A stretch of DNA of 64,000 nt from Gracilaria domingensis (Eukaryota; Rhodophyta; Florideophyceae; Gracilariales; Gracilariaceae): positions 1 to 64,000 of the forward strand of contig VCMS01000121.1 in assembly GCA_022539475.1 (NCBI GenBank), read 5' to 3'. The notes under the pieces are model-generated. The model made no database searches, was not told the DNA's origin, and worked only from the letters and a program-made list of their open reading frames with translations. Shown in pieces: positions 44,909-64,000 of this stretch; position 1 is the stretch's first letter; every line of letters begins with the position of its first letter. Both the position numbers and the translations under genes were made by a program.

Positions 44909-47104
44909 CTACGCATCCTTCGGCTCGGTTTTCTGTTCCGAAACGGTCTCTCCCACCAGCATGGCTGCCTGCCGAGGCTGGGCGTAAGATGTACGATTCG
45001 GGCCGATATTACGGAAACTGATATTGGATGGCGGTGGCGTGTTTCTCCGTGCGGGAATACCGGTGCCGTAGTACCCTTCGCGCCGGCGTTGGTAGTTTTC
45101 CTCGCGGATTGCGAGGAGCTTAGCCTTAACGTCCGGTGGGAGGAGTTGACAGCAGTTGGGCTCCCGCGAGAGGCCAATCCTGCACGGACGGTTCCTTGAC
45201 GCTGCGCCAGGAGGGTTGCTCGATCTTTGGCCGGGCGTACTGAGGAATGACCGTGCGGAAGTCGTCGGGGTGGTTGCACTTGGTGTGGTGGGTGGTGACG
45301 GCATGAAAGACCCCTTGGGAACGATGAGGACTTCCTCGCCGTCGTCGTCCGACAAGGAATACGTCGAGGCCGAGGGGGACTCGATGTGGTGCACCTTCCT
45401 TATCGTACGAGTGGAACGAGGCCACGCAGACGTAGTCTGCGTGTCCACCCGAACGGACTGGCGGCGTAAGGCGCGGTGAGTATCGCCGTACGATTCCGCA
45501 TAACGGGCGAGCGCGTTGTATCCGATACTGGGATGGGTGGTGAGGTGGTTCCGCACCTTTGACCGTATGGCGGGCAAAAGTCCTTTGACAAACAACCCCT
45601 CCAAGTCCCGATCGGTGTATACGTTGCCACAGCGGAGGGCCTTTGTCGAGAGCTTCTGGGCGAATTCCGTTTCGGACATCCCTGACGACTGGGTGTAAAA
45701 TGTCACCTCTGCGGATGCCGTGGCGATTACTTCATCCGTGGCGTAGGTGGTCAGTAAGAAGTTCACCACCTCTTCGTACTTATGGAGCGCTTCATCGCGA
45801 GGCCTGTCGACCGCTCCCGACTCACCAATGAGACGGCACTGAACCAGAGCGTGTGCGGGCCCGGTTAGGTAGAACTGGAAGCACCACAGTGCCACTCCTT
45901 CTGTCAGTCCGTTATGGTTGCAAGCGGTCTTGAACCGCTGCAGGAAATTGAGAACGGAGATGGGATCTGTTCCGGAAAATGAATGTCCTTTCATCTGGAC
46001 GTTCAATTTCTTTTGATAGCGCGCGATCTTGCGCGCCACCTTCGAGTCGTACTTCTGGCTGCGCCAAATCAGCCGGTACGTACGGTAGTCCACAACCTTT
46101 GTGAAATTGACGTTTAGAGGTCGGAGGCGCTTAAGCGCCAACTTCTCCGATCGGGAACGTCGCCGTTCAGACTTGCGTTTTCTTCGGGCGCTTTGAGAGT
46201 CCCCGGATTCATCCGAGTAAGTCTCCTCATTCTCTAATAATAAACGCGAGAACGCGGAGTCAGTATCTGAATGTCGTCGCCCTCTGCGGCGGCGACGATT
46301 CTTCCGTCTAAGTATGGAATTGTCCGAATCGGAATGCTTGCCCGGTTTACCGCCTCGTTTGCCGTGATTCCTCCCGTCGTCGGAGGAATCGCTCGAGCTT
46401 CCGTCCGGATCACCCTGAGGGGATACTGGTGGGAGATAGAAACCGGTCGGATCCCTCTGCGGACCCTTCTTCATTTCCGGTCTCTGTCTCTCACCGCGAC
46501 TAGGTCCGTTGTCCGTTTGGCCAGTGTCAAAGTTTGGGGGTTGAGGTGGAAGCTTAGCTACAAAAGCGGCCAACGTGTTACTCAGATTCTCTTGCATTCC
46601 GCTTTCGGTACGTCTGGATCCCAGCGCGTCGTTCACGATGCGGTGTACGATCGGTGTGATGTCACGAAGCATCAATTCCGGGATACGGTCCTTGAGATAT
46701 AATTCGAATGCCATGGGTACATGAACCTCGATCTCCGTGCGGAGTCCCTCCAGGGCGTACGGGGCTATTTCGGCCCATAGCTCGTGGGGTGGTCTCCGTC
46801 CGGTCTGAGGTGGTGGCGGGAGTGCCACCGTCCCAGGCGGTACAATCTCGGTTCCCAAAGGGGGCTCGGAGTTCTTACTCCTCTCCTTCTTCCTTCCGTC
46901 CGATTTGGTTTGCAAATTGCGTTCACGGATTATCCGCTCGGGCTCTTCTGAGGGGGTCACGTAGGCCGTCGCGGTACTTCGGGTGCTCCGGCGGCCTACC
47001 GAGGCATGGTCCGAAGCGGCGCGAGGGGCCGCCAAAGTGGACTCAGCATTGTCTTCTGCGACCTGCCGTTCTCCTTGCTCTCCGTGTGGGACGTTCGAGC
47101 TCAT
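44909..47104 (-). other. Gag region of the gypsy element
   Basis: A long open Gag frame. The N-terminal third is charged and Pro-rich, followed by Arg/Ser clusters (KNRRRRRGRRHSDTDS). The capsid-like core reads FSGTDPISVLNFLQRFKTAC and ALWCFQFYLTGPAHALVQ, typical of the retrotransposon Gag family. The C-terminal tail is rich in Ser, Pro and Arg. I do not see a CCHC zinc knuckle. Confidence 0.85.
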
Positions 47105-47179
47105 CTTCGAGTATCGTTTCCAATTCGGTACTGTAAACTCTGTGCGGTCTCGAATTCCATTTCTAAGTCGGGAGACCAG

Positions 47180-47733
47180 TGTGATATAGTACATATCGCG
47201 AGAAAACCCGAAGCGGTCTTGAGGCGACGGAGTGGGTTGTGGCTCGAGGGAGCGACTGTAATGAATCCGTACGGGGAGTAAGGAGGAAGCACCCGGCGAT
47301 CATCGGGGAGAGTGGGCGGTTGGTATCACCAAGCACGTTCAGGAGCGTGCGAAAGGGTACGAACGGCCTAATAAACCTTATAGTACTTAGCCTAACGGTC
47401 TGTCGGTAGCGCTACTTGACCAACAAGACGTACGGCAAAGGGTGCTTGGTGTTTACAACGTGAGGTCATGGCGAGGTTGGGGTTCGCCTAAACATCAGGT
47501 AAACCCGCCTCTGTACGACCTCCAGATAGTAACTTACAGTACTATACTACGCCCGTCAACGTCCTACTGGCATACGTGTCCTACGTACGCTCCCAAGTAC
47601 GCTTGGGTCCAACGTCCGATGCGGGGAAAACTACGCGTACAAGTAACCGCTCGGGCCAGCCCTACACGTACGACATGGCACTTCTCACAACCCACTCCGT
47701 CCGCGGCGATCAATCAGATCGTACTATACGACA
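47180..47733 (-). repeat. LTR (5' LTR in element orientation)
   Basis: Partner of 36659-37212. The primer-binding site lies directly inside it (47162-47178, minus strand), one base from the LTR edge, with the same TGGTCTCCCGACTTAGAA sequence as the other element. Confidence 0.92.
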
Positions 47734-48840
47734 CTGGCTCCCTGGTGGGCGATGGTCCCGTTGGGCTTTGCTCACTGTCCTCGTCATATATGGATGAGTC
47801 CTCTTTCGCACCCTCCGAGTCGGACTTGAAGGGCCCAGGGGGTGCGGTTCGTCGTATCCGTCGTACCCGTGGCAGGAATGCGTAGCGCGCTTCAGCTCGT
47901 TTGAGTCAATAAAGAGCTTCAGCTTCTCCATTCTTCCTTTTGCAGGACGCGTGGTCGCGGCGCGTTTGCGGTGCGGTCATCCCTCTCGAGGGCCAGCGCG
48001 TGCACTTTGGTGGTGCATGCGGGGTGCACAACGTGCGTCACGGCCCTCATGGCGTGAATTGAGCCCTGCTTGGGTCCCCTCTCCTTCTTGGAGTGCGCTT
48101 GGACTCCAAGCGTCAAGACTTTCCGGCCGAATGAGCCGGAGCGACGTTGGTAGCACGCGCGCGCGTGCACGGTGCTGCGCGCGTGCGCGCGGCACGTGCC
48201 AACAAGGCGGCGCGGTGCACAGTACGCGCGGCGGCCAGAAAGATATGTCCTCGATAGGTTAATAGGCTAGAATCGGCAAATTTCCCAGAAGGTTACTGGC
48301 AAGGCGAATCAAAAAATTCGCGCCGGAAATTACCTTCCCAGATCATCTGTCTCTTGCAGATGCTAGTTTTTGGCGAGGGTCGTCCAGAAATTGGGAAGGG
48401 TCGTCCAGTAAATTTGTGAAAAAATATCGAGATCAATTATTTCAAAATTTGGAGATAATTGCTTGGGTCGTCCAGAATCGCTGTGCCGTAAGTACTGGTG
48501 GGTTTTCCACTCATGCTAGTTCTTTAGTCGAGGGCTACCTGAACGGTATTTCGCGAAGTCTAGGTTCAGTTTCCATTAAGGTGCACATTACACGATACCT
48601 TCTGCGGAATGATACCCTGCAACGCATGGAATACTGGTGCTAGTACAGATGATGCCCATTATGAAATCATACCGTTTTATTCGTATCTATTCTTCTATCG
48701 ACCACTTTTGCTAACCACTACTTCGCTATATTACATGTACCATTTCCCCATGATGGAGCGGGTGTAGGCGCAATCTGCGGCGGATGCCGCAGACGGCACC
48801 TCCACCATAGTGCTGTATCGGTAGAACAAATACGCACTCC
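47734..48840. other. Flank beyond the gypsy element, GC-rich, no gene
   Basis: 47739-47885 reads as a protein-like tail ending in GAVRRIRRTRGRNA, followed by AATAAA at 47908-47913, so an older transcribed unit may end here, cut by the gypsy insertion. 48140-48240 is an alternating GCGCGTGCAC-type stretch able to form Z-DNA; similar sequence occurs near 23310 and 63800-63900. The remainder shows nothing recognisable. Confidence 0.4.
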
Positions 48841-48926
48841 GAGAGGATGAGGCGCGAAGCGCCTCATCCTCTCCGTTCCTCATGTAGGGAACCATGCCCA
48901 GATGCATGGTTCCCTACTTGAGGAAC
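48841..48926. repeat. Two adjacent long hairpins
   Basis: 48841-48873 has perfect 15-nt arms and a 3-nt loop. A single C (48874) follows, then 48875-48926 has 23-nt arms with one mismatch and a 6-nt loop. The layout mirrors 1199-1289 (long hairpin, C, short hairpin) although the sequences are unrelated. Confidence 0.85.
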
Positions 48927-48963
48927 CTGCACCTGCAACTCGTGAGCTACGTCCGCATCAAAA

Positions 48964-49110
48964 GTCATTTACCTGTATACGCAAGCAGAAAGTATCCATA
49001 AGTTAGTCAATTCTCCGTTGGATGCATTTGAAATGCGATGGAACCTACCGTTGATAAAACAAAGCAGAAACGTTGAGCTAGAAAAGTCGAGGGACCTAGT
49101 AACTCGCAAA
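48964..49110 (+). repeat. 147-bp direct repeat, copy 1
   Basis: Matches 49337-49483 with about a dozen substitutions. Starts GTCATTTACCTGTATACGCA and ends AACTCGCAAA. No coding role seen. Confidence 0.85.
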
Positions 49111-49336
49111 GGGAAGAAGAAGCATGAAAGGGATCGGTTAGATTACCAGCCCACCATCATCGTGAAGCGCGAAAGGTGTCGAAGCGAGAACTCACAAGCA
49201 AGGACACCAAGAAAGCCCATGCAGCAAACATATCGCAAGATGCGATAAACGAAAGAGCAGCCTATGTCCCAACCAAGCACCAGAATCGCCTATCCCGAAC
49301 AGTCAGACATCGATCTTGAGAGACGAAATGAAATTG

Positions 49337-49483
49337 GTCGTTTACCTGTATACGCAAGCAGAAAGTATCCATAAGTTAGTCAATGCTCTGTTAGATACAT
49401 TTGAAATGCGATGGAACGTACCATTGATAAAACAAAACAGAAACGTTGCGCTAGAAAAGTCGAGGGACCTAGTAACTCGCAAA
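49337..49483 (+). repeat. 147-bp direct repeat, copy 2
   Basis: Partner of 48964-49110, spaced 373 bp start to start. The intervening 226 bp show no internal structure that I can name. Confidence 0.85.
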
Positions 49484-49676
49484 AGTAACCCAAAGCCTTT
49501 TTCCTGCCGTTTACATGTCGCAGAGCGCGAAGAGACGTGGTAAGGATTGGTTAGTTTAGAACAAAGATACGTAGAAGGATATGGAAGCACGTACGAAAAG
49601 ACTGCACGGAAAGACTGCACGGAATACATCCGTGAGATACGGATGCTGTCCGCTTTATGGAGGCGTCCGACGAGGG

Positions 49677-49761
49677 CGGAGAAAGAGATTGAGGTACGCT
49701 TCATGTCCGCTTAATGGAATCCATTAAGCAGAGATGAAGCGTACTTCATTCTCTTTCTCCG
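49677..49761. repeat. 85-bp nested hairpin
   Basis: Outer arms of 28 nt (49677-49704 and 49734-49761) differ at two positions. Inside sits a perfect 9-nt-arm hairpin (49709-49729, GCTTAATGG and CCATTAAGC). A further small hairpin with CGCTAC/GTAGCG arms follows at about 49763-49782. It lies about 300 bp upstream of the Plavaka-like transposase and could be part of that element's end. Confidence 0.8.
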
Positions 49762-50072
49762 CACGCTACTTCGTAGCGAGTGCGAGGGCGGAAAAAAGTA
49801 CGACGGAGCGGAGTAGAACGCGAGGATGGCACGGATCACGACGGTAACAGAAGTTCGGACGTCGGACGGGCGGCGGCGGCGGAGGGAAGAGATTTATTTT
49901 TCTGTGCCAGATTGGACAAGTGTACAGCCTACAACGTTGCGAAACCACGTGTGTATAACCAGTGGTAGATAATACGAGAAGTACACCCTTGTTTTGAGGT
50001 CGACGTGTACCTACGTTCCTTTTTGAACGAAAGCACGTGATTTAAACTCAAAATATATTCTCCGTTCTCAGC

Positions 50073-53000
50073 ATGACGTCGATCTTGACTGTCGCTCGAC
50101 CTCCTTCTCCCTTCTTACAACCTTCCCTTGCAGTCTTTGTCGTCGTTTCTCGTTCATTTCTTCTTCCCGTGGTCTACTACAGTACACATAAGAAGCGTGG
50201 GTGCCCCTTCGTTACTCGCCGAGCAGTCTTATCTCTTCAACAGCATGTCAACCATTGCCCGTTTCGTCTGAAAGCAGCGCTGGAAGACGACAATAGCCGG
50301 TCCATTCGGAGAAGCAAGCGTCTCAAGCTTTCCGCGCCCGCGCCCGCATCTTCCGAAACGGTCACTGCCCCTTGTCGCCTTCCCGAGCCTCCGGTGTCCG
50401 AGGACATCGTCGACCCCACTCCGTGCGCCCCTCCCATTCCGGACACTTCGCATTGTGTTTCTCCTTCCCTGGATCCCGCGTCATTAGAGCGAGAACACGG
50501 AAGCAGTTCCCGCCCAGTGCCTTCTGAGGAGACCCTCGGTGATTTGCATATAGATTATCTCACGGTTCGTCTGGCTTCAGTAGCTTCCAACCTTGGTCAT
50601 CGTGAGGCTGACGAGCTAATTGGGCTACTTCGGGACCCACGATTCTCGCAAAAGCGATTCAACGAGACCATAACAAGTTCCAAGCGCTGTACAGAACTGA
50701 AGAACGCCATTTTCGAACGATACGCCTCAAAGGACGGTTTCAATCGAAGAACTGTCTCGCCAGAAGGATGTAAGTTCAGCGCCACCCTCTACACGAGAGA
50801 CCCCGTTCAGACACTTGTGAAACAGCTCCAGTTGGCTAAGAACGAAAACACATTCTTCCACCCTATACCTCAGACCTGCTCCACGAAAATATCTCACCCC
50901 ATGTCCGGCTCTCTCGCAAGAGACGCCACCTCAAAATTTGAGGAAATGGTCATGGGCTCTTTGGATAAAAGAATAGTGTGGTACTCACAAGAAGTAAGTT
51001 ACAGTGAATCTTTCGTAGGTCTTCTGCCGGTATACACCGATAAGTCTTCAACAACTCTAAAGCAAACATCGGTTACCGCCTATCCTCTTCACCTCATATT
51101 TCTCAACTTCTCCGACGAGCTTGGCCGTAAGTGTATCCGTGATGACCTCACAGTAGTGACATACTTCCCTACCACACTGATCGAGGTTTCCGCATCTGAA
51201 GCAGACGCAATGCTATTCGTTTCCAGCAAGTCTCTACGCGAGTCCAGGATGCAAATCCTTCAAGAATTTCTTCGTCAAGTCCTGGAGCCCATTCTAAATC
51301 TCACGCAGAAAGGTTTTCAGTTCATCGGCGAAGACAAACTAAGTCGAGTGTGCCATCCTCTGCTTGCAAGTTATTGTGCGCATATTCCTGAGGCTAAGGA
51401 CATTCTGTCCATTCTTCATGGGACCAAAACGGAAAGCCCGTGTCATAGATGCAAAGCCCCTCGCTCATCTTTATGCAGTCCTATTCCCACCTCATTCAAC
51501 GGACGTTCTCAGAAGCACACGAGAAGCATCCGAAAGACATACACAGCTATCTTGCAACATGCACAAAAAGACGAGGCGGAAAGACGTCCACGTCGTGCGA
51601 GGGAAAAGAGATCTCAAGCGGATACTCTGATGCGTTCAAATTCCATATCTCTCATTCCTTCGTTCCTCGAAACTTCCGTAAGCCTTGGAATGGTCCCGAG
51701 ACTGTCCCCATACAGTCTGTTCTCATTCGAACCATTACACAACTTGCATCTCGGCATCTCAAAGTTGATAAATACGGCCACAATCGAGAGACTGCAGTCA
51801 GACACCCTGTGCACCACAATAAGAACATCTGCATCGCGTTCATTTCGAACGATACGCACCAAACTCCTCAACCATGCAAACGCAATTCTAGCTGCCATAG
51901 AACGCGATTCTCCTGCCAAAGGTTTACATATCGATTTCTCCACGCAGGAGAAAGGCAAATCTTTGAATGGTATCTTCACGAAAGACGGTCTCCGTGGAAT
52001 GCTGGAGGCCAAAAACTACAAAGCACTTGACATGGTCTTTCCCTTCATAGGAGCATTCTTTGACATATGCTGTGGAGAACAGGACGTTGCCCCAATCACA
52101 ACCGTTTTCTCTCAGTACTCGGACTTGCTTTCGACCTTATTCAGATACAATCGTGACCCGTATTGGACTGAAAGCTCTCTCCTGTGTCTTAGTTCGGAGA
52201 TTGAAGCCTTCAAGCGTTCCGCAACAAAAACTCTGGCGGATTTTCATCCCTCCAGACTGGGAACTCTGAAGTTTCATCTTCTCGATCATCTCATGGACGA
52301 TATTCGCCGTCTGGGAAGTATCAAGTACTACGACGCAGGCATATACGAACATGCACACCTGCTATTTAAAAGACACTACAAAAAGACGTCCAGAAGAACA
52401 GCAACGGCTGTGGAGGAGAGTATTCGCTCCATTGAGCACGGACATGTTAGAAAGCAATGGAATGGCAATACTCCTTACCAGCGTAATCCAGGTTTACCAG
52501 GAACTTCCACACAGCTTCCTCGGTTTGCAATGAGAGGGCGTTCTTTCACTTTACGAGCTCTTCAACATTGTGTTTCAAGTATGTCCAGTTCAAAAACATG
52601 GACTGCTGTTAGAGAAATGTTCTCAAGTACGGACACAAGGTCGATTCTTGATCAAATTGGTGAACAGGCCCTTCCTTCTTTCCTCAGTCTCGTGAAAGAA
52701 ACACTGGATGAGCACTCTATTACATACTTCCCAGAAAAGACAAGGATAACTCTGGTGAATTCGGCCCTCGTGAAAGGCGGTTTCGTTCCGACTCTTGAAC
52801 ACTTCGATTCGTCTTCTAAGGCACTTAAGCTGGGACGACCCAAATACCCCATCATCCAACGTGTCTTCGCTTCTCCAGCATTTGGTCCCATTAGAAAGCC
52901 AAAGTTTTCCACTGTATTGGTAAGCGGAGAAGAGTCAGATACTTGGGTTGCCCAGGTAGTCGCTCTGATTCGAATATTTCTCCTTGATTCTGCACTTACC

Positions 53001-53348
53001 GCACCAGAGGTGGCATTCGTCCGGTATTTCGAGGTTTTACCCCCCGCAACAAACATCGACCACATATTGAAATGCATATCTTTACGGTGGGCTACAAACG
53101 ATGAAAAGAACCACACTCTTCCGTTCCCTCGTCATTCCAAAGCGGAGACTATCGTAGAGTTAACTCCTTGGTACGGGATGGTTCCGGCTTCTGCACTACA
53201 GGGAACTGTCCATGTTGTTCGATCAAACTACCCTGCTCCACCTTTTTGTCCTCCACTTCAATGGTTTCAACACCGATTCGACATCAATCGATTCTATCAT
53301 GATTCAGATGAAGAACCAACTGAGCACGTTGATCTTGTACAGCCTTAA
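50073..53348 (+). CDS. Plavaka/CACTA-type transposase, 1091 aa
   Basis: A single open frame from ATG 50073. An N-terminal single zinc-finger-like motif (GCPFVTRRAVLSLQQHVNHC, residues about 43-62) resembles the C2H2 finger at the start of Plavaka and KDZ transposases. The central part matches the Plavaka pattern: TRDPVQTLVKQL, PVYTDKSSTTL then AYPLHLIFLNFSDELGRK, a zinc pair CHRCKAPR, FEPLHNLHLGISKLIN, LKFHLLDHLMDDIRRL, and YYDAGIYEHAHLLFKRHYKK in place of the family's YNTE..ERLHIDYAK..YRAS block. Plavaka elements belong to the CACTA/EnSpm superfamily and move by cut and paste. Assignment rests on motif order read by eye; a KDZ relative is the main alternative. The gene is uninterrupted and its stop overlaps that of the convergent gene at 53345. 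I could not find the element's terminal repeats. Confidence 0.68.
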   Translation: MTSILTVARPPSPFLQPSLAVFVVVSRSFLLPVVYYSTHKKRGCPFVTRRAVLSLQQHVNHCPFRLKAALEDDNSRSIRRSKRLKLSAPAPASSETVTAPCRLPEPPVSEDIVDPTPCAPPIPDTSHCVSPSLDPASLEREHGSSSRPVPSEETLGDLHIDYLTVRLASVASNLGHREADELIGLLRDPRFSQKRFNETITSSKRCTELKNAIFERYASKDGFNRRTVSPEGCKFSATLYTRDPVQTLVKQLQLAKNENTFFHPIPQTCSTKISHPMSGSLARDATSKFEEMVMGSLDKRIVWYSQEVSYSESFVGLLPVYTDKSSTTLKQTSVTAYPLHLIFLNFSDELGRKCIRDDLTVVTYFPTTLIEVSASEADAMLFVSSKSLRESRMQILQEFLRQVLEPILNLTQKGFQFIGEDKLSRVCHPLLASYCAHIPEAKDILSILHGTKTESPCHRCKAPRSSLCSPIPTSFNGRSQKHTRSIRKTYTAILQHAQKDEAERRPRRAREKRSQADTLMRSNSISLIPSFLETSVSLGMVPRLSPYSLFSFEPLHNLHLGISKLINTATIERLQSDTLCTTIRTSASRSFRTIRTKLLNHANAILAAIERDSPAKGLHIDFSTQEKGKSLNGIFTKDGLRGMLEAKNYKALDMVFPFIGAFFDICCGEQDVAPITTVFSQYSDLLSTLFRYNRDPYWTESSLLCLSSEIEAFKRSATKTLADFHPSRLGTLKFHLLDHLMDDIRRLGSIKYYDAGIYEHAHLLFKRHYKKTSRRTATAVEESIRSIEHGHVRKQWNGNTPYQRNPGLPGTSTQLPRFAMRGRSFTLRALQHCVSSMSSSKTWTAVREMFSSTDTRSILDQIGEQALPSFLSLVKETLDEHSITYFPEKTRITLVNSALVKGGFVPTLEHFDSSSKALKLGRPKYPIIQRVFASPAFGPIRKPKFSTVLVSGEESDTWVAQVVALIRIFLLDSALTAPEVAFVRYFEVLPPATNIDHILKCISLRWATNDEKNHTLPFPRHSKAETIVELTPWYGMVPASALQGTVHVVRSNYPAPPFCPPLQWFQHRFDINRFYHDSDEEPTEHVDLVQP

Positions 53349-54226
53349 ATATTAAGGGCTCCATCCTCTACATGTTCACCTTGTGGTGCCTTTTCTTGTG
53401 ATCCTGTGTTACTTTCGAAATCGTTCATGTCCATTTCCTTGAACTTCATATCCCCTTCCTCGCATTCACCAACGAAACAATCGCTAATAGACCCCAATCT
53501 TCGGCTCACACTGTCAATAAAAAATTTTTCTTTCACAGTGAGGTAAAGTCTTCCGTTCGACGGCATTCGATATCCAAATGTAGCCTCTCTCATGTCATTA
53601 CCAAGAACCTTAGTCCAATCTTCCGTTGTCGTTCCAAAATTATGAAACTCGCTGGAATTGGTCCTCAAGACACGTTGCCCAACATCCCCCAGAACATTGT
53701 TTAAACAGAGAGGTAGCAGTTCGGCAAACTTCTTTGTAAACAGTTTCTGTCTCTGGCCACCCCTTGACACATCCGTACTTAGAAGGCTCACAACCGTCAA
53801 CACCCAGGCGTCCAAACATGCGAGCAACAGTATTGTGCCATCTAAAAAGGTGCCCGTATCCTTGTCTTCCACATCATACCGGATAAATTCCTTCAGTACT
53901 TGTACCCCGACACGGTTTCGGAAGAACAAGTCTTGATCTTCCGTCGGCATATCCTCGACATTGTCCGCATTGGAGTACTTTAGACGAACATATGGGGCTT
54001 TTCTCCACCATGAAGTGTTCGGTACACCATTTTCGTCAAGACGCAGTATGTTCTCCTGCGCTTCCTTCAACTGCATTGTGAGTTCGTCAGCATTCTCTTC
54101 TACCAGCTTTGTTCTTCTCCAAATCAGATCGTACCCCAGGAGCAGAAATAGTTTATCCCTCGTATTTCTCTTACGAACGCCCACGACGCCACTCATGGTC
54201 TGCCGCATTCTCTGCCTAAGGCACAT
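53345..54226 (-). CDS. Unknown 293-aa protein in the Plavaka-like locus
   Basis: Read from the ATG at 54226; an open frame continues 75 codons upstream but would overlap the divergent gene. I do not recognise the family. It is helical and charged (LVEENADELTMQLKEAQENI, LKEFIRYDVEDKDTG) with a hydrophobic helix LLLACLDAWVLTVVSLL in the middle and an acidic tail. Its stop codon (53345-53347) overlaps the stop of the 1091-aa transposase by two bases, and its start lies 69 bp from the start of the ParB-dioxygenase gene. Such tight packing in a gene-poor region suggests that the three genes travel together and that the last two share a divergent promoter. Confidence 0.6.
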   Translation of the reverse strand: MCLRQRMRQTMSGVVGVRKRNTRDKLFLLLGYDLIWRRTKLVEENADELTMQLKEAQENILRLDENGVPNTSWWRKAPYVRLKYSNADNVEDMPTEDQDLFFRNRVGVQVLKEFIRYDVEDKDTGTFLDGTILLLACLDAWVLTVVSLLSTDVSRGGQRQKLFTKKFAELLPLCLNNVLGDVGQRVLRTNSSEFHNFGTTTEDWTKVLGNDMREATFGYRMPSNGRLYLTVKEKFFIDSVSRRLGSISDCFVGECEEGDMKFKEMDMNDFESNTGSQEKAPQGEHVEDGALNI

Positions 54227-54295
54227 ATCTGCACGGGTCAAACAAAGTCTACCTCCGCTACGAAGCCCACTGCGTCGAAAAGGGCTTCTCCTGCG
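54227..54295. promoter_or_regulatory. Divergent promoter region
   Basis: The 69-bp gap between the starts of the 293-aa gene and the ParB-dioxygenase gene must hold or overlap both promoters. I see no TATA box, so this is inferred from gene arrangement only. Confidence 0.3.
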
Positions 54296-57200
54296 ATGAA
54301 TCAGACCGTCGACACAAGGGGATCTTCTGCTTCGAAACAGACGGTTCAGCAGGGGACGTCTGTGCAAGAGGAGGAAGATGAGATCATGAAAGGTCCCCTT
54401 CCAGACGCGGATGCGCAATCCGCACAAGGAGCTGGTCCATCTGTACCCCAAACTGCACCAGAAACTGCGGAGCAGCAGGACGATGACGTTGTGCTTCTGT
54501 CCGCAAGAATGGCACGTTCAAGTGTTTCTGGCGAGCGGTCTGGAACACAAGGGACACCTACTCGGAGCAAGACGTACAGACGAATTCGTCAGAAGGTACC
54601 AAAGGTGAACCTCAATCAGTACCGGATGGTTGTTGTTACTGTTGACATCACTCTGGTGGACACTCCGCCCAATTTACTCCGTGGAGTAAGTAAACGCCAC
54701 GTTGAAGCCCTTGTGAAGAGTATGGAGGAGCGGGGGATATTGCAGTCGATGGGTTCTCCAGTGGTGGCCTTACAAGATGCTACTACGGGAGAGAGGGATA
54801 CTGACAAGGGACGCCTAACGAAGAAGTGCTTCATTGTAGATGGTTTGCATCGTCTGAAAGCTATACAATATTTGGCAGCGACTGGTGCACCGAAGTGGAA
54901 GCGATTAGCCAAGTTTTGGCGTTGCAATCTGCTGATACGAAGAGATGGGAGGCCCATTGGGATGAAGGAATTGTTATGTGTTGCTTCGTACTTCAATGAG
55001 TCGACGAGTACCATGCGAAGGATGATGTTTGCAGACAAGATACACTCTATAGTTAGTGTGGTCGCCATTCTAATTGAAGATGTTGAGGGGGTGACGCCGG
55101 CAGACGTGGATCCTGCAGAAGTGACAGAAGTGTTGAAGGAGAGCCAACTGATTGGGACTGTGCAAGAGCGTCAGTACCTGAGATATGTCAATGTCGCCCT
55201 GCAACTCATGTCTTGTAAGGGAATGCTGGCCCATTTCGAGGATATATGTGAGACTGTGAGTGACATAGGTCTCACACATCTGTCCCATACTCCGCTATAT
55301 GTTTTGGATGCCGAGGAGTTTTCCTTCATTCTTGATTGTCTTCAGATGTTTCTATTGAAGGGCAAGTCGACGAAGACAAAGCAATGGAAAAGCTTTGAGG
55401 AGGTTCGAGGTTTCTTTTATGATAGAGCAGTGTCTCTGTTCCGCGCGGCTAGAGCAGTGAGGAATGAACTGAACGAGGAAGAGTCCATGGAAGTTTTCCT
55501 GAAACGCGAAGTCAGTCTTTCTGCTCCATCGAATGAAGATGACGTTGAAGACCCAGACAACAACGCAGCTGTGTATCAGTTCCTTTTGGGACAAGTTGTG
55601 AACTTCAACACATTGCCGCGTGTTCGGAGCAGGACGAACTCAATTAGAACTGCCACGACTTCCGTTCAGAATCGATTGCGGACGATGCTCAAGGTAATTC
55701 CGCCCCCCGCACCAGTGAAGCAGTCCGTGACGAAAAGGAGGACTCCCGCTGTTGCTGCTGCAACATCTGCCAGTGAAGAAGGGGAGCCGCGAAGAAGTGC
55801 ACGAGAACGGGCGCAGGTGAGTTATAGGGAAATTGAGCACGGCCGAAATCGAGGTGCCATAGAAGTTCTGGATAGCTCTGAAGAAGAACAGCGGGCTCCG
55901 CCGAGGAAGAAACGGAGAAAGACTTTCATACAACAGATGAGATCTACTCTGAACAGCATGACACCGGATGACCTGATGTCTCAACTAAATGAACATGTGC
56001 TGAGAGAAAGGTCGATGAAGGTTCAGTTCGTGGCATTGGGAGAGGGAGCGAATGCAGAGAACGCAGGCAGTTCTGCATTTGTGGATGACGATGAGCTTCT
56101 TTCTGTGACAGTTCCACGGGTTGTCACCGTCGAGAAAGATGCTGCGCCAGACGATCAGCAAGAGACAGGTGGGGGGTCATTTGATGACGAGTTACCTACA
56201 GCTCTTCCGGAATCTGAGCAGCACGGACTTGTTCGAGGTGACCGATATGATGGCCCACCGAACCCATCATGGTCCGGGTATGCCAGGCTGAGACCGCAGG
56301 AATGGCAAGGGAAGAACGTAATTGAGCACAAGGACCCCTGGCTCAGAGTCATTCACTTGCCGAAGGGACATAGGTCGGAGCTGCTAAGTGTCTCGAATCT
56401 CAGAGATGTACACCATCTTGTCTTTTGGCACGCTGCAAGGGCTGAACATCGCCTACGGGCGGAGACATTTGGTATGCAGTATCCTCGTACTCGACCGACA
56501 GGTATGGATGATGAAGAGGTGCTGTGGGTTGCTGCGAAGGAGCATGACGAATTTGGGCAAATGTTCTTCGCCCGAATGCAAGCTGAGCTAAGGCAGAATG
56601 GATATTGCGTGCTTGATGGCTGTGCGACGGATAATGGTGTCCCTAAATGGGAGGAGTTGGAAGAAGTTCGGGAGTTCGGAGATGTGTCGGGGAAGTTGGT
56701 GGACTTCTTCGAGAATGAGTATGGAGCGATGCCGGATATACGGAAAGGAGAGGAACAGAAGTCGTTTGTTCAAATAATCAACGATGATGAAGGATGGAAG
56801 GACGGTAGCGATGGACCATTTGAGGGGAGAGTGATGTCGACACGTTGGGGTACGGTGGAGAGGCCGGAGGATAATGAGGAGCTCAGGTGGGTTGTAAGGT
56901 CGCGTGCTTTACTTGATGTTCGAATGGGTACAATTGCTGCGGCTTTGGGACTATGGGACAATGAAAGGGAAGCTGTGAAGATGTACACTCCGAGAACTGG
57001 TGGTCGATTTCTGGGGACGACGAGAAAGTGCAAGCGCCAGACGCTGCACACCGACTTCAGTGGTCTGGTTACGAAGGAAACAATGAATACTAGCAACCCC
57101 GGATACTTTGTAATGGCCTCTGGGAAAGAAGGCTTTCCTCTCTGGGTGAGCGCTGGAAGCCATTAACTGGTGGGGATGAACAACCAACAGTTGCGAGTGA

Positions 57201-57610
57201 TGTCGGAGGTGTATCCAGCGAAGAAGATAATCATCCCACCGTACTCTGTATTCGTGGGCCGTGGTGATGTGACATATGCTGGAGCAAGTGGGAAGGACAA
57301 GGTGGATATGCCCGAGTCTATGGATTTGCTGGTTAGATACCACATGTACATGGTACCAGAGAGCTACGCACTACCTGATGCTGTTCATCGGGTTCGGAAT
57401 TTCCGACCCACGTTTGTCAATGGTGACGAGGAGGAGGAGGCGGAGGATGAACTGCTGTCCGATAAGGACGGTGGGGCGGTTGACATGGACGAAGACCAAG
57501 TGGTCGTGGAGATTGGTGTGGAAGCGGACGTCGGTAGAACAGAAGTGCTAGAGAGTAGTAGTGATGACGATTTGCCAATAATGAGGCTGCGAGCGCCTCG
57601 AAGTGGATGA
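54296..57610 (+). pseudogene. ParB-like domain fused to a 2OG-Fe(II) dioxygenase-like domain
   Basis: Open from ATG 54296 for 956 codons, then one in-frame TAA (57164-57166), then open again in the same frame to 57610. Residues about 111-187 match the ParB/sulfiredoxin fold: VSKRHVEALVKSMEERGILQ, PVVAL, and KCFIVDGLHRLKAIQYL with the VDGLHRL motif where ParB has GxxRR. A helical region follows, then a disordered basic linker with a nuclear-signal-like PPRKKRRKTF near 541-550. The C-terminal part is dioxygenase-like: HTD at 918-920 as the first iron ligands, PLWVSAGSH, IPPYSVFVGRGDVTYAGAS, and Arg1014 in LVRYHMYM as a possible 2-oxoglutarate ligand. The usual distal His of an HAG motif is Tyr994 here. 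The stop sits where relatives of this fold often have GSHK. A 45-nt GTGAGC...CAACAG segment (57146-57190) spans the stop and could be spliced out, but would remove conserved residues. Probably a recently damaged gene; TET/JBP-like base oxidation is a hypothesis only. Confidence 0.62.
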
Positions 57611-57925
57611 GAATGAGATGATTAGTAAATTATGTGTGTCTTGCGAGTATTAAGAGTAGTATACTATTACAATGCTATACATATGAACATAGAAAAGGTG
57701 CGGCAGGCTGGTGATTGAACAAATGTCAAACGTCTTTGGTCCAGTTGCGTCTAATTGCAACATGCCAAATGCTCGGTATCGTTAACATCATTGGTGGCAC
57801 CAGTCAATTCGCAATTGAACATGTAGCGTCCTAAAACTTCTGAAACTGCACTTAAGGTTGCTTTTAAGAGAAGTATGAAACTGAGAAGTCTATAGAGTTC
57901 CTGTCTATGCGGTGCTTGTGGCAGT

Positions 57926-58786
57926 ATGGTGACTGTATCAGGAAAAATGGCAGAGGAACAGAGAGACTTGGCGGAAATTTCACCCAATACCTTGTCTAAG
58001 TTCATATATGCCAATGGTTACGGTATATTAAGTTCCGTTGATGGAACTTTGAGAAGAGAAGGAGAGACAATTCCAGAAGAAGTTGTGAAGTGTATGAAGT
58101 TCATTGACGAACGTGTTGGTTTCGGACTTGTCACAAGGGGTGATGTGGGCGACGTGGAGGGGAAAATGGAATGACTCGGAGATTATAAGTTTGGTGTCTC
58201 GGCGAATCATGGAGCTTTCCTCCGTTTCTCTGACGAGTGGTAAAGTAAGGCTGCATTCAATGATCACACCCTTGACCACACTGTTAACGGACTACTGTTC
58301 CTGGCAAGGGATTTGAATAGGAGGCATGGTATTGTGAATGATGATGACAAGGGGTTCGTGGAGACCAGAAGTGATAGTGGCCTTCCCAATTTCGTGTACA
58401 ACAAACTGTGGCAGTGGAAAGAAGAAGTGGATTCTGCTATTGGGGACCTGTTGCAGAAGATGGATGCGTTTGTTATCTATCCCGGCGATAAAAGTTGCGA
58501 AATTGTGGACAAGCGATACACAAAAGGAAGCGGAGGAGAAAATCTTGTGGATAATGAACCGAGATTTATTGATACGGATGACGTCGTGACGTTCGGAAGT
58601 GCTTTGAGTGACGGGCCTTTGCATGAGGTAGCCGTGTACGGCGTTCACGTCAAAGAAGATTGTATCCCGGGTGGAGTACACAACCTGTTCGAAAGCGTAG
58701 AGGATGTACATTCGACAATTATTTTGATGGCTCTGTTGTACGGCTACGAGGAAAAGCAGCACGATAAAAACCACCATGATTCATAA
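57926..58786 (+). pseudogene. HAD-superfamily phosphatase pseudogene
   Basis: A plus-strand HAD hydrolase relative read in one frame with two in-frame stops (TGA 58172-58174, and a TAA about 75 bases later). Motif I reads SSVDGTLRREGE, so the nucleophile Asp of DxDGT is Ser. FGVSANHGAFLRF matches the middle of cofactor-type HAD enzymes. PRFIDTDDVVTFGSALSDGPLHE corresponds to motif IV, with Ser-Asp in place of Asn-Asp. It is homologous to the inverted gene at 58839-59297, which keeps the catalytic Asp. With stops and the nucleophile lost it is not an active phosphatase. Substrate unknown; trehalose- or mannosylglycerate-phosphate phosphatases share this fold, but I have no evidence for either. 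Confidence 0.72.
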
Positions 58787-58838
58787 AAGGGTATTGAGAT
58801 ATACACGACACTTTTATTACTGAGATCTCATATCATAG

Positions 58839-59297
58839 CTAAGTATTAAAGGCATCGTAGCACTTGAAACAAATTCCAAGAGCATTTCTAAACCTTTGAC
58901 ACTTGCATTTTCTGTACCCGTACAGTACTGCCATCCTTCTGATGGTCTCATGCACGTCCTCCACCCCATCAACAAGATATGTTACCGCTGCTGGATGGTC
59001 TTCTCCCATCACATGAACTGCCAGGGTTGCCATTTCATATAGAGGGCCATCATTGGAAGCATTCCCGAAAGCAACGATTAAATGTGTGTCGAACTGGAGG
59101 TCGCTTTCAACCATGATTCCGAAACCAACGCGTGCATTGATGTACTTCATGCATTTGACTGTTTCGGCAGGAATGTTCTCCCCAGCTCTTTTCAGAGTAC
59201 CGTCAATATCACTAATCACGGCGTAGCCATTTTCGAATATTTCGTTAGCGAGCTGCTGAGGACTTACTTCTTGGGCTCTAACTTCTGAGTTATACAT
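58839..59297 (-). CDS. Short HAD-like protein, 152 aa, lacking the cap region
   Basis: ATG at 59297 to a stop at 58839, uninterrupted. Motif I is intact (VISDIDGTLKRAGENIP) and motif IV present (IVAFGNASNDGPLYEMATL). About 130-140 residues found between these blocks in the neighbouring inverted copy (cap domain plus motif III Lys) are missing: GFGIMVESDLQ runs straight into FDTHLIVAFG. The protein is therefore half the normal size and may be a deletion derivative that still translates. Tail-to-tail orientation with 57926-58786 points to an inverted duplication. The C-terminus has extra cysteines (CKCQRFRNALGICFKC). Confidence 0.6.
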   Translation of the reverse strand: MYNSEVRAQEVSPQQLANEIFENGYAVISDIDGTLKRAGENIPAETVKCMKYINARVGFGIMVESDLQFDTHLIVAFGNASNDGPLYEMATLAVHVMGEDHPAAVTYLVDGVEDVHETIRRMAVLYGYRKCKCQRFRNALGICFKCYDAFNT

Positions 59298-59299
59298 GT

Positions 59300-60022
59300 T
59301 TTAAAAGCTTTTGAAAGCGTTCGTTTTGCAAATGGGTGTGGGTATACGAATGAGAAGGATGTGATTGATGTTCACAAGGTGCTTCGTAGTATAAAAAGAG
59401 TCTAAGATCGACCATATACGGGTATTGTAGTACTGTTTTAAAACGTTACTACGACGAGAAGCTTTTACATCGATTTGCAGTAAAGAAAGGATGATTTAGT
59501 CATAAATTATATGTACGGGTTCAAGTGGGTAAAGAAAACTATGAATATCTTCAACATAAGCTTAGAAATCAAGATCAGTAAAACAACCTCCATTAAGGGT
59601 TGAAACCCATAAAAGGTTTACCTTACTTTATACGGGTGCCCCAAGTATTGCAAAGGCTTAGTTCTTCAGAAATATCACAATTTTGTGCTTGTTTCGTTAC
59701 TAGTATCGTGCACTTTAATGCTGCGGAATGACCCTTTTCCATCTAGAAAAAACTTAGCCAGGTATTAGTGATAAGGGATGTAGGATTTAAAAGGGCATAT
59801 TTGAACCACAGAAGGACGAACAATATAAGTAATGTAATAGGAACAGGTCATTTCGATAAAGTAACTTTTATGTTTAACTATCTCTAAAAGGTTTACAACA
59901 CCGAAAAGTCATGTGTTCTAACCTCAAAGCTGGGAGAATGGGGAGGGGGATAACTTTTCCTTAACAACGTGGACCTAGTTTGTATGAAAAGGAGCGGGGT
60001 CACCGCCTACGATGTTTCTTTC
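59300..60022. other. AT-rich spacer without genes
   Basis: No reading frame of note. It would hold the promoter of the 58839-59297 gene and the 3' region of the oxidoreductase pseudogene. A possible TATA box (TATAAAAAG on the plus strand near 59390) reads away from the HAD gene. Confidence 0.4.
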
Positions 60023-60826
60023 TTAGCGGGAAAAGTCGTAGAAGTATGCGTTCCTAAACTGAAAGTCGGAGAAAGAAGTAGGGAAGCCAACGAGAGTTTT
60101 TCAATATGCAAGAAGTCGCCCAACGGTCTCTTCCAGGTGGAAAGTAGTACCTGTCTTAAGCGAAACTATCTTCAACAGCTCTTTCATTATTGTGAGCACA
60201 ACCGTACTGCACTCCGTAGCGACTACGTCCATAGGAATGAAACCTCTTGAGGCCCCGACGATGTTGAACGCTGATAGCCACACGAGCTTTTCATAATAGC
60301 TTACGAGAAATGTGTCTTCGTCGACAACCCCGCAAGTGAGACCCATAGACCTAAACCTGTCTGCAACGTTGGAGGCTCACTTTCCTGTTGCGACAGTGAG
60401 ACCATCCGGACTTTGAGAAGTGACACCATCCTGCGGAGCTGCGTTTCTTGAGAGGACACGAACGTATAAGACAACTTTTGAACACTTGTCCACACCGAGC
60501 TTCGAAAGCAATGGTATGATGTCTCCATTCTGGAAGAAAACGAGATTCTCTCTGAGCGAATAAGGGCAAGCCTGAATTACGGTCTCCAGGGTGTTCGTTC
60601 TTCCACAAACTAGTAACGGTACATCAGAGAGATGAGAGGTAGCAGCCATGCTGCAGAATTCGTGTGCGGAAATGACCGTATCTTCTTCGTTCGCCAGCAT
60701 GGTACCTATACGCCCTCTTCCAACAATAACGGCCCGAGTCCTTCGGGCGGGAGATGAGACCTGAGGGACGTCAGAGTATCTGGGTCTCGGAGGCGGAGTG
60801 GGAGGCATGTCGGACTGGGAGTTCAT
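60023..60826 (-). pseudogene. Rossmann-fold NAD(P)-binding protein pseudogene
   Basis: Read from ATG 60826 (MNSQSDMPPTPPPRPRYS). RAVIVGRGRIGTML is a GxGxxG dinucleotide site, followed by VPLLVCGRTNTLETVIQACP and NLVFFQNGDIIPLLSKLGV, which recall ketopantoate-reductase-like proteins of algae. Two in-frame TGA codons interrupt it (60377-60379 after DGLTVATGK, where relatives usually have Trp, and 60101-60103 after GRLLAY). Family-like sequence continues in the same frame after each (VADRFRSMGLTCGVVDEDTF; LVGFPTSFSDFQFRNAYFYD) to a TAA at 60023. There is no frameshift. The family memory is moderate; the exact enzyme is unknown. Confidence 0.65.
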
Positions 60827-61223
60827 TGCAAGTGTTCGAATGTTCTTGTGTGACGATAGAAATGGAAGATGGGGCGGGGAACTGCTGGGGTAAAGAGTGA
60901 TACTTAAGTACAAACGGTTGGGAAGCGCAGAACGGGAACATGGTTCACTTTGTGGAAGTGAGCGAAATGTATGATATGTGATTGTACTGAATGAATGATA
61001 GAGCTTGTATGAGACGACAAGCCACAAAGTGTGATGATGTTTTATGAAAAGTGGGTGGAAGAGTAGAAAGTGTACAATGATTGAAACTGATTTCGAACCT
61101 GAGTTGTAAAGTAGTTGTAAAGTACGAGTTACGGGGAGCTTTAATACAGGATGAAAGGAGCCATTTTGGCTTCATAAATGACGTGAACGGGTTCTTTAGC
61201 TTCACTCGGATTGCCATAATTAA

Positions 61224-61544
61224 AAGGATGGAGTTGGGTTGCGCCCAAATAATTCTATAAAGGTCGTAGAAGCACTTATGAAGGAAGGAGTTGTAGACAT
61301 GTTATTGTTGATGACGGTGGAGCCAGGGTTTGGAGGACAGGCGTTTATGGAGGGTGTTCGTGATAAGGTGCGACAGGCAAGGGAGTTGTACCCAAGAATA
61401 GGGATACAGGTGGATGGCGGTATTGGACTGAGTACTGTGAAAGGAGTAGTGAAGGCCGGTGCAAACATTTCAGTTGCAGGATCTGCCATCTTTGGCTCCA
61501 GTAACCCAGCTCATGTCATAGCTGGTTTTCGAAAGGTTGGTTAG
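61224..61544 (+). pseudogene. rpe: Ribulose-phosphate 3-epimerase, C-terminal fragment
   Basis: About 105 codons equal to the second half of ribulose-phosphate 3-epimerase (Calvin and pentose-phosphate cycles): GLRPNNSIKVVEAL, DMLLLMTVEPGFGGQAFM with the conserved MTVxPGFGGQ loop, GIQVDGGIGLSTVKG with the catalytic VDGG Asp, and ANISVAGSAIFGSSNP phosphate-binding end. The full enzyme is about 220-230 aa. The N-terminal half with the first metal ligands is missing, and a stop codon lies just upstream, so this is a truncated copy. No frameshift within the fragment. Confidence 0.85.
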
Positions 61545-61599
61545 AGATAGTAGCATAAATTTATTGTTTATTACATTGTTACCTTTACGTGTTATCACG

Positions 61600-61960
61600 A
61601 CTATATTCTCCGTCTCCATTGGAGATGTATTTCTCTTGTATCACAACCGGAAAAGGATGTGAGAGAACATCAATATATCCCCAGTGGACGCTGAGAGGGA
61701 GGATGAACTACTCTACGTGCTATCATTGTTACCCATCGGGTGTCGAGTGGTGACATATTCTTTTTTTTGTCACAACCCACAAAGGATGTGACGGAAGAAG
61801 AAGATGCCCCCAGTCGAGACAGAGGGTGAGCAACTCTAAGTACAATCAATAGTCCCTAGCTTTACTCCACTGGCAATATCTTCCTGTTTTGCTATAACCA
61901 TCGAGTGGGGTTATGGTGGAAGAGAAAAATATCGCTGATCGAGGCGAGGTCGGTGGGGAT
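61600..61960 (+). repeat. Three diverged tandem units of about 130 bp
   Basis: Each unit contains a ...TTTTGTCACAACC-like stretch followed by AAAGGATGTGA (or GTGGGGTTATGG in the third), then AGATGCCCCCAGT-like and GAGGGTGAGCAACTC-like blocks. Conservation is partial. The first unit starts after the epimerase fragment and the last runs into the region before 62000. Confidence 0.5.
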
Positions 61961-62185
61961 TATGTGAGCGCGAAAGAGGAGACAGAGAGGTGGCGCTCAA
62001 ATAGTGGAAGGTGCCGGGGTGTACAGTAGATGTTTTGGCGGGAAATGGGATGAGGGAAATAGGGACAATCATGGTGCTGGATATAGCCCGTGTGGTTGGA
62101 CAATGGGGGTGGACAGCACAGTTTAGCTCGATTGCACTGTATCGCAGCGGAAACTTCGATCCAACTACTACTTCTTCTTCTGAAG

Positions 62186-63115
62186 ATGTTGAACGGATAC
62201 GTGAAGGATGAGGAGCTGTTGGCGCTGTTGGAGGGGAAGGAGGTACCGCCGAGGCCGTCACCAAAGCGGGAAGAGGACGTGGTTACGGCGGCTGGTCGGA
62301 TGTCGCAGAAGAAGGAAGTGGCTGATGAAGGACAGAAGTGTGAGGCGAGGAGAGGGGATGGTGATGAGGTGGAGAAGGGGGTAGAATTGGAGGTGGAGGG
62401 GGTCGCAATGGAGAGAAGGGGTGCGGTGCATCTGAGTCAGTTAGAGGTTGGAGACCAGATAGAGAGTGGGGGCGGAGAGGGTGATAGGGAGATGCGGTTT
62501 GTGGGGGAGATGAAGGCGAGAGTGGGGATGTTGGGGTTGGTGATGAAGGAGCAACTGGACGATGGAATTGTGGAGATTGTAACGGAAATGGGCGGTGTGG
62601 TGCTGAGTGGGGGTGGTAGTGCTGTTTCGGTTGAGGCGATTTCGAGCCTGCGGAATTCGTTGTCGGTATTGGGAGTGGAGATGAGAAATCATGTGTATGG
62701 GATAGTGGAGTGTGCGGGAAGGGAGGTTGGAGAGTTGCGGGAGGAGAATAGGGTTCTGAACGAGAGGTTGGACTTGCTGGAGAAGGAAGTGAAGGAGCTG
62801 TGCAAGAGGCAAAGATTGGTGGAAGAGGAGACGGTGAAAGGAGGTGTGGAGGGAAAGACGGAGAAGGGAAGAGTGGGAAGGGTGGCGGTGCAGAAGGGGT
62901 CTCCTGTGACACCGAAGACAAAGGGTGGTGGGGTTGGGGATGGGAAGCGCCGTCTGAAGAAGAGGCGTAAGGAGATGAAGAAGGTGGTGGAGGAGGTGCC
63001 GCGGGAGGGAGTCGGAGCTCCGGTGGTGACTGGGTTTAGGAGTGCGGCGGAGGTAGCGCGGACTGCGAAGGGAATTATGAGGGGACAGGAGGAGAGAAGG
63101 ATGGGAGGGATGTGA
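62186..63115 (+). CDS. Hypothetical coiled-coil protein, 309 aa
   Basis: Read from ATG 62186; the open frame starts 32 codons earlier from GTG. It is highly charged, with a clear coiled coil near the middle-to-C-terminal part (VGELREENRVLNERLDLLEK) and a basic cluster (KRRLKKRRKEMKK) likely to be a nuclear or nucleic-acid-binding signal. The plus strand is strongly purine-biased throughout. Just past its stop, another frame reads KQFWARPVYEKGEGCPPDFY to about 63219, so the gene may continue through an intron or a frameshift. I do not recognise the family; a transposon ORF1-like protein is possible. Confidence 0.5.
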   Translation: MLNGYVKDEELLALLEGKEVPPRPSPKREEDVVTAAGRMSQKKEVADEGQKCEARRGDGDEVEKGVELEVEGVAMERRGAVHLSQLEVGDQIESGGGEGDREMRFVGEMKARVGMLGLVMKEQLDDGIVEIVTEMGGVVLSGGGSAVSVEAISSLRNSLSVLGVEMRNHVYGIVECAGREVGELREENRVLNERLDLLEKEVKELCKRQRLVEEETVKGGVEGKTEKGRVGRVAVQKGSPVTPKTKGGGVGDGKRRLKKRRKEMKKVVEEVPREGVGAPVVTGFRSAAEVARTAKGIMRGQEERRMGGM

Positions 63116-63119
63116 AGCA

Positions 63120-64000
63120 GTTTTGGGCGAGGCCGGTATACGAGAAGGGGGAGGGTTGTCCACCTGACTTCTACAAAATGACGTTTGCGGAGACGGAGAG
63201 AGAGGATGCGAACGCGTGATGGGCGAGAAATGGGTAAATAGCGGGGGTGGTGTGGACTGGGAAGAAGTGATGGGATGATTGAGGTGGGATGAGTTGCGAT
63301 TGGCATTGCAACATGGGAGAAAATAGAAAGGCAAACTAGCACGAGTGCAGTTTTGAGAGAGGGTCGCGGAAAAGAGTGAATGGGGTGGTGCGGCGAAGTA
63401 GAACCTCTACAAAAACTAGGGGACCCAAGAACTAAACTGCGCGAAATGGAATTTAATATTCCAAACTTTCTTAATTTTTTGAGTGCCAGCCTCTGCTACC
63501 CCCTCGCGCGCCCCAAATAGCCCCAAAACTAGCTTAGTTTCTAAAGCGAACAGACTATATTCCACTTTGCAGAACACAGACGATGGGGTCAGAAACGCCG
63601 ATTCTTTGTTTTGCCCGTAGCTCGAAAACGCGGGCGTTTCAGCGGCTCGCAATGCCCGATTTGGGGTGCGCGGCACATCTAAATACTTAGGATTTTTTGA
63701 TTGTGCCAGGCCGCGCCCCTACGGGCAATACTGTATACCCAATCGGCTACCGACAGGCGTGAGCCACGTGGCGTTTGGCCTGCTTGCAACGGCGCATGGC
63801 GGTGCACGCGCTTGTGCATGGTGCGCGCGTGTCCCATGTGGGTATTCCGAGCGTGCAACGGCGCGCGCGTGTCCATTGTGGCCGTCCCACGCGTGCGACG
63901 GCGCATGCCAGCAAGGCCATGCGCTGCACAAGGTGTGCACAGTCCTCAAAAGGTCGCCCGCTCGGTACTGCGGGCGTTCCAAGTCGTCCTAGATCATCCC
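63120..64000. other. Right end, GC-rich repeat, no gene
   Basis: Apart from the short protein-like run to 63219, no gene is visible. 63770-63920 holds diverged repeats of a CAACGGCGCATG / GCGCGTGTCCCATGTGG pattern with alternating GC and GTGCAC, similar in style to 48140-48240. Confidence 0.45.

Follow-up and report, generated by a model that had tools for sequence, protein, structure and literature searches.

A Giant Plavaka-Group Transposon in Gracilaria domingensis with Predicted Methyltransferase-SET and ParB-Dioxygenase-Like Genes

Three Open Reading Frames in One Deleted Transposon

The stretch analyzed (hereafter, the window) comprises 64,000 nucleotides of the red alga Gracilaria domingensis (assembly GCA_022539475.1, contig VCMS01000121.1, positions 1 to 64,000, forward strand) and contains a Plavaka transposase gene with two neighbors, which an initial annotation had described as a tightly packed, transposon-like set. 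The assembly searched for further copies consisted of 77.9 Mb in 680 contigs, with the window in contig C121. The three open reading frames (ORFs) were present as described, at 50073-53348 (+), 53345-54451 (-), and 54296-57166 (+), and the first matched Pfam family PF18759 (54.3 bits; cut-off of 26.3), in agreement with the proposal of a Plavaka-type transposon in an alga. Comparison with other genomic copies revealed that these ORFs are the remains of one internally deleted transposon (genes A, B, and D; Table 1), the extent of which had been underestimated.

Similarity among copies dropped sharply at 48344 and 63582, and further copies had both of these ends in common with the window copy. 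The empty site L061, read base by base, was CCCAG-AT-GGGG, and in the window the element was located between two AT dinucleotides. A second empty-site candidate, L046, was set aside, its alignment being in the wrong orientation. The element has the ends CGTCTGT and ACAGACG; 13 of the 17 bases of the terminal repeats paired between the ends of copy C34, and each end had at least 40 matches in the genome. Eight copies were seen with both ends, three of which had equal 2-bp flanks (AT in the window, AA in C187, and CA in C57); in seven further end pairs, one end was not found or was beyond the contig. Copy C34 was 22,644 bp long and four others spanned 22.4-23.1 kb, which gives full copies of approximately 22.6 kb. 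The gene order on C34 was A(+), B(-), C(-), D(+), E(+), F(-), G(-), and H(+), plus an epimerase fragment, with open frames of 1100 codons for A, 822 for B, 1055 for C, and up to approximately 1300 for D.

The tight packing of the ORFs in the window was an artifact, because an internal deletion had joined them. All seven copies compared, from the same genome, held extra DNA between 54233 and 54234 (6.3-7.0 kb in six copies and 2.5 kb in C169), and the junction showed a 2-bp microhomology (AC) in the six copies compared base by base. The second ORF corresponds to the C-terminal end of the 822-codon gene B, extended into the antisense of the third ORF, and the third ORF has lost its 5' part. The supposed end of the third gene at 57166 was a premature stop, and the frame continues to 57610; the codon at 57164-57166 encoded glutamine in 13 of 15 rows and was TAA only in the window, with one row unresolved. 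A motif histidine of D, retained in 12 of 14 resolved copies, was tyrosine in the window copy. At a second site (59113/59116), the five copies examined there held an extra 414-452 bp. Gene C and the starts of B and D were thus removed in one microhomology deletion, and the copy in the window is dead.

Gene C, a Predicted Methyltransferase-SET Protein

Gene C, which the window copy lacks, is predicted to encode a beta-class N6A/N4C DNA methyltransferase (MTase) fused to a SET domain. The N6_N4_Mtase domain (1.5e-13) was followed by SET (9.4e-5), and both were over the cut-off. The assignment was the same in all three families of the element that were scanned, with 51.7-55.0 bits for PF01555 (cut-off of 26.7) and 23.2, 28.2, and 23.1 bits for PF00856 (cut-off of 22.4). 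Matches in PDB included DpnA (5.3e-7) and CcrM (3.9e-6), which are beta-class enzymes (PF01555) that, similar to C, carry the catalytic DPPF/DPPY before a FAG-type motif. Motif IV of C was DPPF in five of six resolved family 1 copies, DLPF in the sixth, and DPPY in families 2 and 3, and the canonical SET motif NHS was replaced by YINDA. The best PHROGs match of C was phrog_67 (8.3e-23), and 17 phage records matched it weakly, in the MTase part only. No wider relatives of C were found at E ≤ 0.001, and IMG/VR contigs yielded no match for A, C, or D. Contig C382 contained three other N6_N4_Mtase matches of 459 bp, in frames of 1169-1170 codons, which were unlike both element classes described below.

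Conservation and Linkage of Genes A to D

The MTase matches in the genome (at least 150) fell into length classes, with 91 near 714 bp, 32 near 695 bp, and 27 others. Locus C12, from the second length class (family 2), contained all four genes with the order and orientation of family 1, although the two families shared only 45% (A), 37% (B), 35% (C), and 29% (D) protein identity, and B and D were frame-broken at C12. In a third family (C157), C and D were seen, with a Plavaka match 6.5 kb away. The set is therefore conserved between diverged families and, because all four genes keep their order in family 2 and A, C, and D are seen in the third, it is a long-conserved module. Between families 2 and 3, C showed a nonsynonymous divergence (dN) of 0.27 and a synonymous divergence (dS) of 2.67, the latter near saturation. 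Shared variants in family 1 gave omega-like ratios, from small counts and without a tree, of 0.44 for A, 0.55 for B, 0.52 for C, and 0.40 for D; the corresponding singleton ratios were 0.97, 1.09, 0.57, and 0.90. These values point to past selection and present decay in family 1.

The gene set of the window was also found together again elsewhere in the genome, as the initial annotation had anticipated. At least 123 Plavaka, 134 B, and 48 D loci were counted; these totals and that of the MTase matches are lower bounds, and the linkage counts are lowered by contig ends and deletions. Among the 123 Plavaka matches listed, 31 were followed, 3-10 kb downstream, by an MTase on the opposite strand, most of them approximately 6.0-6.5 kb away, compared with one on the same strand and two upstream as controls. 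The expected arrangement with an MTase was found at 51 of the 134 B places listed, and a wrong arrangement at one. For D, 17 of the 48 places listed had B or an MTase, including eight with both.

The transposase assignment of A extends to family 2 (PF18759, 85.3 bits; cut-off of 26.3). The CxxC motif (CHRC) of A was present in all eight resolved copies, and the HxxxH-type motif FHLLDH occurred in families 1 and 2. Gene B matched nothing in Pfam, NCBIfam, or PDB, and an integrase match reached only E = 2.

Gene D, a ParB-Like and Dioxygenase-Like Protein

The N-terminal part of D matched four ParB-like families in PHROGs (3.9e-4 for phrog_3264, followed by 0.007, 0.03, and 0.24), one of which was matched again, weakly (0.15), by the D protein of family 3. 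A weak match to GmrSD_N (0.21) was also observed. The motif [VI]DG.HR was common to D and to the related protein P0003, and corresponded to IGGAHR in family 3 and, in another frame, to IDGAHR in family 2. Together, these features lend moderate support to a ParB-like domain in D.

The C-terminal part is dioxygenase-like by its motifs. HxD, GSH, and GDV.HAG...R were retained in D1 and P0003; family 2 kept the oxygenase-like motifs with HxD and H in one frame, and family 3 showed GSH and GDV.HAG...R in a piece that starts after HxD. The order HxD/GSH/GDV.H/R presumably resembles that of PhyH-type enzymes. A comparison of this region with two host PhyH proteins (hhalign) gave a probability of 1.3, which was not significant. 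Phage records contained no DNA-level match for the ParB or oxygenase pieces of D.

A search for wider relatives of D returned three proteins. P0003 (ENA; 1243 aa) has the same architecture as D, with 34% identity in the second part and 23% in the first. P0001 and P0002 are G. domingensis proteins annotated as mediator subunit 15-like and cell-wall-anchored SasA, and these are transposon D genes; the best identity of one of them to the element copies compared was 95.5%. In the oxygenase-like part, their gene models omit the HxD/GSH core. Genes of such elements can therefore hide under wrong annotation names.

The DNA Mark

No C5 methylase (PF00145) was detected in the assembly by a six-frame search that ignores introns and in which 10 of 14 prokaryote controls matched. 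Transitions among copies affected 257 of 23,901 CpG positions (1.08%) and 816 of 81,798 other G/C positions (1.00%), and the CpG observed/expected ratio was 0.93. At its left end, the window copy has CA in place of CG; decay of 5-methylcytosine (5mC) was considered as the cause and rejected, as there was no excess across genome copies. Neither D nor its pieces matched Tet_JBP. In the MT-A70 search, no control matched. The fungal TET model of 5mC removal, a parallel drawn in the initial annotation, does not fit because no C5 methylase and no CpG transition excess were found; an amino-methyl mark does.

Interpretation and Alternatives

The element is probably a giant cut-and-paste Plavaka-group transposon (CMCT clade) that carries its own DNA- and chromatin-modifying module, in which C marks and D acts in favor of the element. 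C would mark both DNA, by amino-methylation, and histones, on lysine, whereas the ParB-like part of D would bind DNA, where D would oxidize either a methyl group or a protein. Together, C and D would keep the element's own DNA permissive for expression or transposition. The presence of the MTase-SET gene makes a marking system owned by the element more plausible than it was from the three ORFs in the window.

Several observations weigh against this interpretation. The activity of C and D is predicted from sequence alone, and flanks were unequal in five of the eight copies with both ends seen (C34, C165, C222, C179, and C100). The omega-like ratios of family 1 were just mildly low, with the singletons of A, B, and D close to 1, and 31 of the 48 D places listed had neither B nor an MTase listed nearby. 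The ParB matches of D were weak, with none in Pfam ParBc, in PDB, in P0003, or in the family 2 piece. The oxygenase region of D matched no 2-oxoglutarate (2OG) family in Pfam, NCBIfam, PHROGs (no informative match), or PDB, and AlphaFold gave a predicted local distance difference test score of 28 for D and for its oxygenase part (two sequences each). Of the two domains that the initial annotation had assigned to the third ORF, the ParB-like one has moderate support through the four PHROGs families, and the dioxygenase-like one is indicated only by conserved motifs.

As neither family nor fold evidence indicates a 2OG oxygenase, the C-terminal domain of D could be an unrelated fold with chance motifs, and D could be solely a DNA-binding partner. 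However, HxD, GSH, and GDV.H plus arginine are fixed in order across four diverged sequences where covered, and the motif histidine is retained in most resolved copies, which makes this alternative rather unlikely. A TET-like 5mC eraser, of the kind found in fungal TET+ Plavaka and KDZ elements (PMC12730594), would agree with the HxD...H motifs of D and with the occurrence of TET/JBP genes in fungal Plavaka elements (PMC12730594). The lack of a Tet_JBP match, of a detectable C5 methylase, and of a CpG transition excess leaves it with hardly any probability, and this reading was rejected on that evidence.

The modifying genes may instead act outward, with C and D silencing or marking the host or rival elements, or damping their own element. 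A combination of SET and DNA amino-methylation can silence, as observed for N4-methylcytosine (4mC) together with trimethylated lysine 9 of histone H3 (H3K9me3) in bdelloid rotifers (PMC8885841), and a very high copy number is compatible with outward or self-shielding action. Outward action nevertheless appears unlikely, as conservation within the element suggests that the genes benefit it. It would be more surprising still if B, C, and D were passenger cargo, i.e., host or bacterial genes that were picked up and are of no use to the transposon. True passengers are present in the element, including a ribulose-phosphate epimerase fragment and HAD-like genes, and gene E showed no constraint (14 nonsynonymous to 3 synonymous shared variants, ratio of 1.54). 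In contrast, B, C, and D recur with A in the same order in diverged families, and the dN of C between families 2 and 3 was well below dS; gene capture was rejected for these three genes on their conservation.

The preferred interpretation, an element with its own modifying module, can be extended to a full epigenetic code run by such elements, in which C would deposit N6-methyladenine (6mA) or 4mC plus a histone lysine mark and D would read, erase, or restrict it, in a lineage that would have lost C5 methylation. The spread of these elements would also explain the large N6_N4_Mtase expansion in Asparagopsis. This extension is doubtful, but possible. Asparagopsis taxiformis has 66 N6_N4_Mtase genes, whereas three other red algae have 6, 5, and 4 (PMC12115072); the surplus in A. 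taxiformis may be transposon-borne from the same source, which is a prediction. If the module operates as proposed, one mobile protein joins a DNA writer (an amino-group methyltransferase) and a histone writer (SET), and it becomes testable whether red algae use 6mA/4mC and whether mobile elements brought such marks.

Comparison with Known Systems

The element is similar to the PlavakaA and PlavakaB elements of fungi (CMCT clade) in its transposase domain and in the CxxC and HxxxH motifs (PMC12730594). Fungal Plavaka elements generate target-site duplications of 2-3 bp (PMC12730594), comparable to the 2 bp of the window copy with its empty site, although only three of eight algal copies had equal 2-bp flanks and five did not. 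The fungal elements end in TGT..ACA (PlavakaA) or CATCA..TGATG (PlavakaB) (PMC12730594), neither of which is matched by the algal ends. Some fungal Plavaka elements carry a TET/JBP oxygenase gene (PMC12730594), whereas the algal element, with no TET/JBP match, differs in its length and in its MTase-SET and ParB-dioxygenase-like genes. The giant Plavaka repeats of Amoebidium are likewise large, gene-rich, intron-poor, and linked to a Plavaka transposase, and their genes match only distant lineages, red algae among them (PMC11244446). These repeats contain many tyrosine recombinase genes, in clusters of up to 50 kb (PMC11244446), whereas no tyrosine recombinase was recognized by Pfam among the element genes scanned here. 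The part of that report covered mentions neither an MTase-SET nor a ParB gene for them (PMC11244446).

The rotifer N4CMT is, like C, a bacterial-type amino-methyltransferase in a eukaryote that is joined to a chromatin domain (PMC8885841). N4CMT is encoded by the host and contains a chromodomain (PMC8885841), whereas C is encoded by a transposon in many copies and carries SET at its C-terminus. The phage proteins phrog_67 and phrog_3264 are the best matches of C and of the ParB-like part of D, respectively, but the algal counterparts are separate, divergent eukaryotic transposon genes. In the literature covered, most subscription papers being outside its scope, no MTase-SET or ParB-dioxygenase gene was found to be described in a transposon. 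C5 methylases occur in some retrotransposons. Transposons with epigenetic enzymes are known mostly through the TET/JBP oxygenases of fungi (PMC12730594).

Downstream Genes and Flanking Sequence

Downstream of D, E and F are related HAD-IIB-like genes arranged tail to tail, of which E is unconstrained. The intact F in L029 reached 50.0 bits for PF08282 and 42.5 bits for TIGR01484, both over the cut-off. The epimerase fragment at 61239-61544 is a C-terminal piece and resembles a captured gene piece.

Table 1. Positions of the transposon copy and its parts within the window.
Feature	Position	Strand	Basis or remark
Whole transposon copy, 15,239 bp	48344..63582	+	Ends common to copies; empty site L061
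Left target-site duplication, AT	48342..48343	.	Empty site reads CCCAG-AT-GGGG
Right target-site duplication, AT	63583..63584	.	Empty site reads CCCAG-AT-GGGG
Left terminal inverted repeat	48344..48360	+	CATCTGT in window, CGTCTGT in most copies
Right terminal inverted repeat	63566..63582	-	Ends ACAGACG
Gene A, Plavaka transposase, 1091 aa	50073..53348	+	PF18759, 1.6e-14, over cut-off
C-terminal end of gene B (whole gene 822 codons, copy C262)	53345..54234	-	Copy comparison
Internal deletion junction; gene C and starts of B and D removed	54233..54234	.	Comparison with other copies
Gene D; truncated at 5' end, premature stop (TAA) at 57164-57166, Tyr in place of motif His	54235..57610	+	Copy comparison
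ParB-like region of D, with DGLHR	54608..55219	+	PHROGs; conserved in P0003 and family 3
Dioxygenase-like region of D (HxD...GSH...GDV.H...R; Tyr for His here)	56567..57403	+	Motifs only
Gene E, decayed HAD-IIB-like relative of F	57826..58782	+	Intact frame in L029; PF08282, 20.1 bits (cut-off 20.9)
Gene F, HAD-IIB hydrolase; 414-bp internal deletion at 59113/59116	58841..59495	-	Intact in L029
Gene G, ORF without family match	60377..61027	-	ORF list, profile scans
Ribulose-phosphate 3-epimerase gene fragment	61239..61544	+	PF00834, 80.3 bits, profile 113-198 of 198
Gene H, ORF without significant family match	62090..63115	+	ORF list, profile scans

The element was inserted within another repeat, as the joined flanks (48224-48343 and 63588-63707) matched at least 40 genomic places. 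Upstream, a GC-rich stretch (36-48 kb) contained a 761-aa ORF at 44909-47194 (-), which had no Pfam match and reads like a retroelement Gag.

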